This document shows positions 13,780-16,541 of a stretch of 64,000 bases of DNA, one piece after another. A program made the translations under genes and the position numbers. Position 1 is the first letter of the stretch, and every line of letters starts with the position of its first letter. The stretch comes from Plantactinospora mayteni (GTDB lineage: Bacteria > Actinomycetota > Actinomycetes > Mycobacteriales > Micromonosporaceae): assembly GCF_016862935.1 (NCBI RefSeq), contig NZ_BONX01000007.1, positions 124,001 to 188,000 on the forward strand, written 5' to 3'. The notes beneath the pieces were generated by a model that was not told the DNA's origin, did not search any database, and was given only the letters and a program-made list of their open reading frames with translations.

Positions 13780-15054
13780 TCAGGGCAATAGTCTCGGTTC
13801 CACGTTGAGAGCAGCGTGGATGGCGCTCTGGTTGACGAAGAAGACCCGGGAAAAGCAGGTTCGATAGCTCCCGCTACTTGGATCCTTCCATGCGTACCAC
13901 GGGTTGCCGCCGTCCTTGGCGCAGTCCGCTGGGTGGCCTCCGCTTGCCGCCTGTACCATGCCGCCTAGGACGACGCGGCCGTTGTTGTATGCGATGGCGG
14001 GCGAACCGCTGTCACCCCTGCCGGCCACTGCCGTGACGCCGTCGACGCTGCGCCCGTAGAAGCCCGGTCCGGCTCCGTCCGGACCGACTGCGTCGATTTC
14101 TTCCACGCGCACGCTGCAGACCTCTCCGGACAGCGCGCCCTCGGCGCAGAACTCCGACCAGTAGGCCGGCTCGCGGGCCTCGTTGATGTCCCGGCCGCTG
14201 GTAGAGTTCCACGGGCCGACGTAGGTGGCGGGGTAGTAGCGCACACCGCTGATCAGCACGGAATCGGTGAGGGCATGTCCCGTACCTGACTGCCCCACGT
14301 ACAGGCCGTTGCTGTTGCCGCTGCCGCCCGCCGGGCTGCCCCAGGTGAACCAGGCCGCATTCTCGCCGCAATGCTGGGCGGTGACCATGGCACTGGTGTT
14401 GTCCGCCCTGCGGACCACCCATCCGGTCGAACAGATGCCGGCCCTCGCGGTGATGACTGATCCGCCATAGAAGTGCGGGGTATCGTCGTACCGCCCGATA
14501 AGGGGTACGTGGGCGCCCTCGTTTTCGACTATTTCGGTCGCCCCGAGAGCCCGCAGGGTTTCCTTCTGTACTGTGGTTGCGGTGCCTTCGAGCCGTACTC
14601 TCATGCCGGCAAAGTCGGGCGTCCTTCCGGCCGAGACCACAGGGATGCCGGCCTGCCTTGCCTGGGCGACCACCTCTCTCGCCGCAGCGACGAACTGCCT
14701 GCGATCCAATGCCACCGGGTGAATGGTCATCGCGGCCTGTGTCTCGGCGTGCCGCGCCGCCAGTTGGTGCAGTGCCGCCGGCGGGTCACCAGCCCAGAAG
14801 ATCCGCACAGTGCGACCGTCCGGTTCGTACCGGCCACCGGCGAATCCGCTGACCTTGGCGTTGTCCACAAAGTCGTTGACGTCGCGCCAGATGGCGTCTT
14901 GCCGCGATTGGTCCCACACGCCCGTCGGTGACGCTCCGGCAGTCGATGCGCCCGCCTGATCCTGAGCCACCACCGGAGAACCAACCGCGAGGCCGGCCAT
15001 CAGCACCATGATCACCGTTCCGGCCGCTGTGGCCAGCCGTCTTCTCTGTGCCAT
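13780..15054 (-). CDS. Secreted chymotrypsin-like (S1) serine protease with propeptide
   Basis: A 424-residue exported protease. A signal peptide (MAQRRRLATAAG then a hydrophobic core, cleavage near VVAQ) leads to a propeptide of about 150 residues with the style of alpha-lytic/streptogrisin pro-regions (LDRRQFVAAAREV). In the catalytic part, His is in MVTAQHCG, Ser in GRGDSGSPAIAY, and the Asp is probably in ALTDSVLISG. Several Cys (ICSTGW, QHCGEN, FCAEG, VCSV, DCAKD, TCFS) suggest three disulfides. GGAGGG precedes the ATG at 15054; an upstream in-frame extension to 15159 has no signal-peptide logic. It lies divergent from the bacteriocin-like gene in the island and ends at a strong hairpin. 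A role in maturing that precursor is only a guess. Confidence 0.9.
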   Translation of the reverse strand: MAQRRRLATAAGTVIMVLMAGLAVGSPVVAQDQAGASTAGASPTGVWDQSRQDAIWRDVNDFVDNAKVSGFAGGRYEPDGRTVRIFWAGDPPAALHQLAARHAETQAAMTIHPVALDRRQFVAAAREVVAQARQAGIPVVSAGRTPDFAGMRVRLEGTATTVQKETLRALGATEIVENEGAHVPLIGRYDDTPHFYGGSVITARAGICSTGWVVRRADNTSAMVTAQHCGENAAWFTWGSPAGGSGNSNGLYVGQSGTGHALTDSVLISGVRYYPATYVGPWNSTSGRDINEAREPAYWSEFCAEGALSGEVCSVRVEEIDAVGPDGAGPGFYGRSVDGVTAVAGRGDSGSPAIAYNNGRVVLGGMVQAASGGHPADCAKDGGNPWYAWKDPSSGSYRTCFSRVFFVNQSAIHAALNVEPRLLP

Positions 15055-15542
15055 GTAAGCGTTCCCTCCGCAAGGATTAAGGGCTAAGGGATGCAAGCAA
15101 CCCTTCCGTCCATGGTGGTTGGCCGCGCTTTCGCCCGGCTTACAACGACCTATCGTCATCCCTGCGCCAGCCGGCAGCAGGTAACCACCGCTCCATCAAA
15201 GCGGGGGAACTCACAGCGCGGACCTTTTCGGCCTCTTCGTGGCGGCCTTCCTTGCGACGCATCCCTCGGCGGCCAGTCGGGCCGCAGCCTCGCCGAGGAT
15301 CGCGGAGCACTGCCGGTCCCTGCCCGAGGCGTTGTCCGAGCTTAGCCACCGCGTCCGGATGCTGGTCCTGCCCGATGCTGTCCATACCGGCTCGCATCCC
15401 GCACCGTAACACCCATACCATCAAACGATCACGTGTTGAGCTACGGGCCATTAAGCGCATGATAGGTGCTTGAAAGGTGCTTGAAAGGCGACTCTGGCTA
15501 GGCTGCCCGAGTCCGACATTCAGAGATGCAGGAGGACAGTCG
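15055..15542. other. Divergent intergenic region with an 11-bp tandem repeat; possible gene remnant
   Basis: This 488-base spacer separates the S1 protease and the fulvocin-like gene. GGTGCTTGAAA is repeated in tandem at 15465-15475 and 15476-15486, giving two TTGAAA hexamers 57-73 bases before the start at 15543. A minus-strand frame ending at 15140 reads DAVAKLGQRLGQGPAVL and EGRHEEAEKVRA, which looks protein-like but cannot be assigned; it may be a small or decayed gene. AGGAGG at 15531-15536 is the ribosome-binding site of the downstream gene. Confidence 0.5.
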
Positions 15543-16541
15543 ATGAGCGGAGAGCAAACCTGGATTCTGGCCTTTGATGGTTCGTGTGCCACCTGCCGAG
15601 CCGTCTCCACCATCGTGGCACGCGAATGCGGTGACGTCCTCACCGTCAAATCGCTTGGTGACGGCGATGTCATTCGATGGCGGTCTTCCGCACTCGGCGC
15701 CGGCGCACCATCCGCGCCCACGCTCCTCCGCGTCCGCGGGGATCGCGTGGCGGCCTGGACCGGCATTCGCATGGGCGTTCGACTGGCGAAAAGGGTGGGC
15801 CCGCGCTCGGCACTACGGATTCTTCGCAACCTCGGCGAGGTAAAGAATCGCGAGGCACAGGCGAGGACTGGGATGGCGCGCAAGGATTTCCTCAAGCTGG
15901 CGGCGGGTGCCGGTATCGCGATGAGCATCCTCGGTTTCAACCGGTCACCGGCATTCGGTGACGGCGCACACTCCAGCCCCGCCGAGCAGTGGGTGAACGC
16001 CAACCTCGGCAGCTTGCCGACGGACTACGACAAGCTGAGCGCCTTCGACCCGACGTACCGGCGAGCGATCTACCGGGCTCTGCCACCGCCGAGCCGCAAG
16101 GAGCTGTGGGTCGAGCATCTGAGCCGGCACCGCGCGGAGATGACGAGCATGTCCGCCGACCAGCGGCGCGTTATCGACCGGGCGATCGCCCTGAGTAATG
16201 ACGAACAGACATTCGTCACACCGATCAGCGACGAACAACATGCCGTGCTCGAAGAGATCAGGGAAGCGGCCATTGCCGCATTCGGGCTGGAAAGGGCTCG
16301 CTCGATATTGGCGCAGCTCGGCACTTCCACTCCCGCAACGTCTCCTGCCTCCGCCGACGGCAGCGCGAGCAACTGCGGCGTTGGTGTCCCCGACTGCAAT
16401 TGCAGCTGCGTAAGCGACTACTGCGCCGGGCGCTTCTGTCTCTGCTGCGGAGCATGTAACAACTGCGGCACGTACTGCTGCTGCTCCGATTCTGGCTGTG
16501 GGTCGTTGTGGCTGTATGCGTGCACCGGCAAATGCCCTTGA
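15543..16541 (+). CDS. Fulvocin-C-related bacteriocin precursor with N-terminal DCC-like CxxC domain
   Basis: A 332-residue protein with three parts. Residues 1-105 resemble a thioredoxin-like DCC domain: WILAFDGSCATCRAV has the CxxC pair C15/C18, followed by PTLLRVRGDRVAAWTG. Residues 113-131 (RKDFLKLAAGAGIAMSILG) look like a Tat-type signal or membrane segment placed internally. Residues about 145-260 are the helical region of 'fulvocin C-related' proteins. The C-terminal 57 residues (276-332) hold 16 Cys. DCNCSCVSDYC and CGSLWLYACTGKC align, as I recall it, with the secreted Myxococcus fulvus bacteriocin fulvocin C (NCSCSTASDYC, GCGTGWVYCACNG). The start has AGGAGG at 7-nt spacing. No separate immunity or export gene is adjacent. 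Antibacterial function is inferred from this resemblance. Confidence 0.8.
   Translation: MSGEQTWILAFDGSCATCRAVSTIVARECGDVLTVKSLGDGDVIRWRSSALGAGAPSAPTLLRVRGDRVAAWTGIRMGVRLAKRVGPRSALRILRNLGEVKNREAQARTGMARKDFLKLAAGAGIAMSILGFNRSPAFGDGAHSSPAEQWVNANLGSLPTDYDKLSAFDPTYRRAIYRALPPPSRKELWVEHLSRHRAEMTSMSADQRRVIDRAIALSNDEQTFVTPISDEQHAVLEEIREAAIAAFGLERARSILAQLGTSTPATSPASADGSASNCGVGVPDCNCSCVSDYCAGRFCLCCGACNNCGTYCCCSDSGCGSLWLYACTGKCP

Follow-up and report, generated by a model that had tools for sequence, protein, structure and literature searches.

A probable precursor of a disulfide-rich, bacteriocin-like peptide in Plantactinospora mayteni, with a thioredoxin-fold leader that also precedes other cargoes

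We analyzed a 64,000-nucleotide stretch of the Plantactinospora mayteni genome (assembly GCF_016862935.1, contig NZ_BONX01000007.1, positions 124,001 to 188,000 of the forward strand; hereinafter, the window), in which an earlier note, made from the sequence alone, had drawn attention to a gene for a protein that combines a CxxC domain with a cysteine-rich end resembling the bacteriocin fulvocin C. The product of this gene is probably a self-contained precursor that gives rise to a secreted bacteriocin-like peptide rich in disulfides. Our confidence stems mainly from two observations, namely, that the leader of the protein is shared with genes that carry other cargoes, and that the neighbors of those genes match the cargo; therefore, the fulvocin-type genes appear to form a branch within a broader, modular set of bacteriocin-precursor-like genes.

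The shared module, which consists of a CxxC thioredoxin-fold domain and an RxxFL signal segment, spans Rubrobacteria, Actinomycetes and Thermomicrobium. In leader-only searches with alignment A2, in which the counts for the phylum and for the window's class are lower bounds, we identified it in at least 17 of 396 genomes of the phylum, 15 of which come from one family that includes Rubrobacter radiotolerans (where the leader protein is identical to the copy on plasmid NZ_CP007517), in at least 18 of 388 genomes of the window's class (two of these only at E-values of 5e-4 to 7e-4), in 15 of the 39 genomes of the class of genome G458, and, as a single gene, on a Thermomicrobium roseum plasmid. 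Searches of viral contigs and phages gave no confirmed match to the leader, leaving a viral or phage origin unsupported. Besides fulvocin-type ends, the cargoes comprise several sorts of Cys-rich hydrophobic peptide, peptides with 2-3 Cys and M23 peptidases. The M23 domain exceeds the Pfam cut-off in one locus (L120, 4606-6420; 39.2 vs. 28.7) and is alike by eye in another (L121, 1282-3129); both are possible cell-wall-hydrolase cargoes. Genome G458 carries four leader copies within about 20 kb (L105 and L106), a natural cargo array, in which leaders identical at 94 of 99 and 91 of 105 positions precede cargoes that have no detectable similarity (z = -0.8 and 0.8); weak similarity is seen between other cargo pairs of this genome (z = 4.6 and 4.8). 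Such a combination of one N-terminal module with differing C-terminal cargoes is polymorphic-toxin-like. The earlier note had proposed that the peptide carries its own oxidoreductase-like leader for maturation. The CxxC leader is real, but it also heads other cargoes, M23 peptidases included. Because it is not restricted to the fulvocin peptide, maturation by a dedicated oxidoreductase is only one of two readings that remain live.

The genes downstream of most non-fulvocin leader genes follow the cargo. We defined an immunity-like open reading frame (ORF) as one of 50-260 residues with at least two hydrophobic segments and a start no more than 250 bases downstream. Such a membrane ORF was found behind 19 of 24 non-fulvocin genes (excluding the truncated, weak or partial L109, L115, L124, L138, L139, L140 and L144, as well as L101) vs. 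6 of 190 other frames of at least 250 residues in the same loci, some of which are perhaps not genes. The similarity of the membrane proteins correlates with that of the cargoes at r = 0.59, compared to 0.13 for the leaders. The partial correlation between cargo and membrane protein, controlling for the leader, is 0.61 (0.60 without L121, where the membrane ORF is doubtful), and none of 10,000 permutations was as high, in a test that does not fully remove shared ancestry. Leader and cargo similarity are unrelated (r = -0.09). One matched pair connects a Rubrobacter-type genome with the window's class (L108/L143; membrane protein 38/123, cargo 26/70). Judged from these comparisons, a membrane neighbor that tracks the cargo appears to follow a bacteriocin-plus-immunity grammar, with a putative protective role.

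Directly upstream of several Rubrobacter-type leader genes lie frames that, by eye, are LuxR/NarL-like response regulators (L108 3844-4689, L114 4518-5204, L115 1564-2217, L116 4158-5030 and L106 10223-12490), which suggests regulated production. Four leader genes, from Rubrobacter-type genomes and Thermomicrobium, have related S8-type serine peptidase frames nearby (L104 2340-3740, L110 1758-3326, L114 8566-9963 and L123 618-2678), annotated as such there; these are possible maturation proteases.

The features of the window gene are collected in Table 1; an AGGAGG-like site precedes its ATG start. Of the two libraries with which the protein was scanned, NCBIfam alone yields a name, and for the fulvocin-type end only: residues 173-331 match NF033852 ('bacteriocin fulvocin C-related') with 105.8 bits vs. 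a cut-off of 35, whereas the Pfam scan reached no family. The earlier note was therefore right about the fulvocin-C-related end, as it was about the 16 Cys in the last 57 residues, and, because the cut-off is passed, the peptide part belongs to a known family. Chance can be set aside as the source of this Cys-rich gene because of the NF033852 score, a paralog in the same genome (L032, contig C66; 49% identity in the search and 47% in the alignment), homologs in ten Streptomyces plasmid records (35-40% identity, with a fulvocin C-related annotation) and 27 loci recovered from named genomes with the leader alone. A full-length frame is present at 23 of these loci; its end is Cys-rich in 22 and has decayed in the remaining one, from Amycolatopsis xylanica. 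By eye, the paralog has a cytochrome c biogenesis-like gene nearby; a thioredoxin-family match lies about 4.6 kb off. In the window, a frame at 13780-15159 on the minus strand, head to head with the precursor gene, is by eye a secreted trypsin-like serine protease; it has no Pfam match and is absent from the 45 largest shared neighbor clusters.

Table 1. Features of the precursor gene, in window coordinates
Feature	Position	Strand	Observations
Precursor gene	15543..16541	+	332 aa, stop included; NF033852 match and homologs
Leader domain, residues 1-108	15543..15866	+	thioredoxin fold, DCC-like LAFDxSCxxC motif, CxxC = C15/C18
Signal/anchor-like segment, residues 112-138	15876..15956	+	R113-K-D-F-L-K, then hydrophobic stretch with AFG end
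Helical domain, residues 146-256	15978..16310	+	block pLDDT mostly 87-97; proposed pro/self-protection domain
Linker, residues 257-277	16311..16373	+	low pLDDT from about residue 261; identity break in L026 tandem pair
Cys-rich core, residues 278-332, 16 Cys	16374..16538	+	eight Cys invariant in the 20-row core alignment A5

The NF033852 family is patchy, with members in 4 of 61 genomes (the window's own included), 13 of 394 genomes of the class and 3 of 396 in the phylum set, where the own genome alone exceeds the cut-off. In 12 of the 13 class genomes with the family, the leader is present as well, so that the union of a fulvocin-type end with a thioredoxin-like leader, described in the earlier note as an unusual design, is not confined to the window gene. 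The exception, G363, has no leader near its ORF for the helical domain.

A model of the window protein built with AlphaFold2 (AF2) from 26 alignment rows has a mean predicted local distance difference test score (pLDDT) of 76.9 and a predicted template modeling score of 0.55, with a confident thioredoxin fold at residues 5-108 (block pLDDT 79-97 up to residue 100, and 73 for residues 101-110). In the Foldseek search, none of 832 matches reached E ≤ 0.001 (best E = 0.0095, probability 0.99); the 50 matches listed are thioredoxins, protein disulfide isomerase domains or have similar titles (probability 0.85-0.99, E = 0.0095-0.045). The leader profile aligned to DCC1-like proteins of related genomes with P = 1e-5 (hhalign, probability 62), compared to P = 0.14 for thioredoxins; a second run aligned just 36 columns, around the CxxC. 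Both the N-terminal LxFDxxCxxC hallmark of DCC1-like proteins and the thioredoxin fold are present. The gathering score of PF04134 (DCC1-like; 27.8) was not reached by the window protein, which had no match, or by its relatives (15.3, 15.3 and, at best, 19.4). Fold, structural matches and profile comparison thus agree on a thioredoxin-like domain with C15xxC18, as the earlier note had it, and its 'DCC-type' label is justified by motif, profile and fold but not by assignment to a Pfam family. The 23- and 26-row alignments preserve the initial LAFDxSCxxC motif, a Pro-Thr pair, an Arg in the signal segment and the cysteines of the core. A CxxC occurs in all 69 leaders scored, but because their starts were picked with a CxxC pattern, the independent evidence comes from the CxxC columns, which are invariant in two alignments including the 26-row one.

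Eight Cys are invariant in the 20-row core alignment A5 (which leaves out L054, L056, L058, L061, L067 and L072), in the frame C.C / C / C / C / GCG / C.GxC, which is broken in L042-L044 and L058. All but one of the 46 distinct fulvocin-type cores have an even number of Cys, and so do 17 of the 18 with more than eight, when counted, by our own rule, from the first Cys after the LG motif in sequences that, being related, are not independent. By eye, the extra CxxC block inside the window's core is also present in L065, L069 and L069b, none of which has exactly 16 Cys; the earlier note had held that the lack of any homolog with the same Cys spacing would speak against it, an objection that thus does not apply. 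Its statement that the disulfide pattern must differ from that of fulvocin C is reasonable, given the even counts in the larger cores. In L042, L043, L044 and L058, the core has decayed to just four Cys, with the leader and helical domain kept and the signal motif altered in some; outside the core, the L043/L044 pair has a ratio of nonsynonymous to synonymous substitution rates (dN/dS) of about 0.22 (0.122/0.555). The two leaders of a tandem pair in Streptomyces NBC_00012 (L026) differ at 2 alignment columns in 60-820, and identity breaks at residue 281, nine residues ahead of the first core Cys (dS = 0.047 in the leader vs. 1.69 in the core). The single copy in NBC_00046 joins the start of the first L026 copy to the core of the second, which would fit a role of the leader as a recombination arm. 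Searched against PDB, the core profile gave two insignificant matches (E = 0.24 and 0.62), neither of them to a methylamine-dehydrogenase-type Cys-rich subunit, a kinship that had been considered and was dropped.

Besides the doubt about the 190 background frames, several observations weigh against the precursor reading and are considered here together with the alternatives that they touch. Among the 24 non-fulvocin cargoes, eight have an odd number of Cys after the signal, and four (L116, L120, L111 and L121) have just 2-4 Cys. These counts, together with the M23 peptidases and the missing relation between leader and cargo similarity, would suit a thioredoxin-like domain that is not a disulfide catalyst but a trafficking or redox-gate module, controlling export or silencing the precursor. 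We consider this alternative possible but less likely than not, given that the CxxC is invariant in two alignments, that at least two Cys are present in all 24 of these cargoes, and that the fulvocin cores have even Cys numbers with a single exception.

The fulvocin branch, furthermore, does not have the neighbors described above: the immunity-like ORF was found behind just 1 of 45 fulvocin-type genes (excluding L025, L034 and the near-duplicates L075-L079, and counting L051, which has just 101 bases of sequence downstream, as a miss), and, among the 45 largest neighbor clusters and aside from the gene's own frames, no neighbor is common to more than 7 of 47 loci. An operon partner was accordingly rejected for this branch, many of the other clusters consisting of just three close relatives. 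The core is disordered in the AF2 model and has a mean pLDDT of 49.3 in a further AF2 prediction, its fold not being predictable. Once the 3 near-identical pairs are set aside from the 24 fulvocin-type pairs compared, the core shows lower similarity than the leader in 14 of 21 pairs and does not in 7 (including L032/L033, L052/L057, L038/L071 and window/L032), so that faster change of the core is clear for some close pairs but is not general. The missing immunity-like gene, these seven pairs and the lack of a significant match to a solved structure could also be explained if the Cys-rich end were a secreted domain with a redox, metal-binding or structural role and a misleading NCBI name. However, the sharp junction in the L026 tandem pair, the sharing of the leader with cargoes whose membrane neighbors co-vary, and the NF033852 match make this unlikely.

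The remaining counterevidence concerns export. The motif for twin-arginine translocation (Tat), S-R-R-x-F-L-K, has a twin arginine, and the window protein, with R-K, does not conform; among the 67 leaders scored, residue 2 is R in just 14, K in 15 and another residue in 38, in a count where the motif was chosen by pattern and picked wrongly in at least one row (L136). No Tat signal model in NCBIfam or Pfam matched the window protein; TIGR01409 exceeds its cut-off for L108 only (17.6 vs. 16.7), and TIGR02811, PF10518 and PF10399 matched weakly elsewhere. R113, in turn, is invariant in two alignments, one of them the 26-row alignment, and nearly so in the 23-row alignment. Thus, the internal RKDFLK motif of the earlier note exists, with the hydrophobic stretch behind it, but is Tat-like only, owing to the K at its second residue, and Tat export of the cargo is possible. 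Because positive charge precedes the hydrophobic segment, the leader would lie inside and the cargo outside the cell. The protein might also stay intact and membrane-anchored, displaying the core at the surface for contact-dependent action and releasing no free peptide: the signal is internal and ends in AFG in the window rather than in the usual AxA, and there is no shared protease gene among the 45 largest neighbor clusters of the fulvocin branch. We find such an arrangement improbable, in view of the AxA that, by eye, most rows of the 23- and 26-row alignments have behind the hydrophobic stretch, and of the variable linker ahead of the core.

Under the precursor reading, the helical domain may replace a separate immunity gene in the fulvocin branch. 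It is confidently modeled and is covered by the NF033852 profile from residue 173. Genome G363 contains, at L045 6171-6557, a 128-residue ORF that corresponds to the fulvocin-type helical domain, with neither leader nor Cys core, a possible orphan protection gene. The domain is the natural candidate for protection because the branch lacks the membrane neighbor and because the domain is compact, is once found alone and is kept when the core decays. The halocin C8 precursor is reported, in a passage of a published account (PMC8628083), to give rise to both the peptide and its immunity protein.

Taken together, these findings suggest the following scheme. The thioredoxin-like domain would stay in the cytoplasm, and the signal segment would export everything behind it; signal peptidase would cut near AFG/AxA, the helical domain would act as a pro-domain and perhaps as a self-immunity domain too, and a second cut, in the linker, would free a peptide of about 6 kDa with up to eight disulfides. 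Before or during export, the CxxC domain would hold, oxidize or isomerize the cargo cysteines; this action in cis is the most likely role of the domain and also the least certain step of the scheme. More broadly, the leader genes might constitute an unnamed class of precursors in Actinomycetota and Thermomicrobiota, with a CxxC leader in cis, swappable cargoes (fulvocin-type, other Cys-rich and peptidoglycan-peptidase-like) and protection through either a membrane protein that matches the cargo or, for the fulvocin branch, the helical domain; our judgment on this proposal is evenly divided. If it is true, one recognizable leader would provide a search handle for many unannotated antibacterial-type peptides and proteins of soil and thermophilic bacteria, together with the genes that probably confer immunity to them, and would pose the question of whether a redox domain inside a precursor can ready the disulfides of its own cargo ahead of export.

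With respect to known systems, the Cys-rich end is already a named family. The window protein exceeds the curated cut-off of NF033852 but differs from it in that the model does not include the leader and in that its core has 16 Cys vs. the eight-Cys frame of the family. The namesake is fulvocin C of Myxococcus fulvus (Tsai and Hirsch 1981), a small bacteriocin. Fulvocin C is Cys-rich, with eight Cys, and the window core has twice that number. Some Rubrobacter cargoes are, by eye, similar to halocin C8, but no halocin model is among the NCBIfam matches of the Rubrobacter-type proteins scanned, so that this identity was rejected, and halocin C8 is not known to have a thioredoxin-like leader. DCC1-like thiol-disulfide oxidoreductases (PF04134) share with the leader the LxFDxxCxxC motif, the thioredoxin fold and a profile that is closer than that of thioredoxins, whereas the leader remains below the Pfam cut-off and is part of a longer protein with a signal and a cargo. 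Among the titles and passages returned from open-licence papers, none described a cargo-swapping thioredoxin-fold leader. Polymorphic toxins combine a conserved N-terminal module with an interchangeable C-terminal cargo and a neighboring gene that tracks the cargo; the leader genes have the same conserved front and swapped cargo and, outside the fulvocin branch, mostly a cargo-tracking neighbor, but here the leader consists of a thioredoxin fold and a signal, and the cargoes are mostly small Cys-rich peptides.
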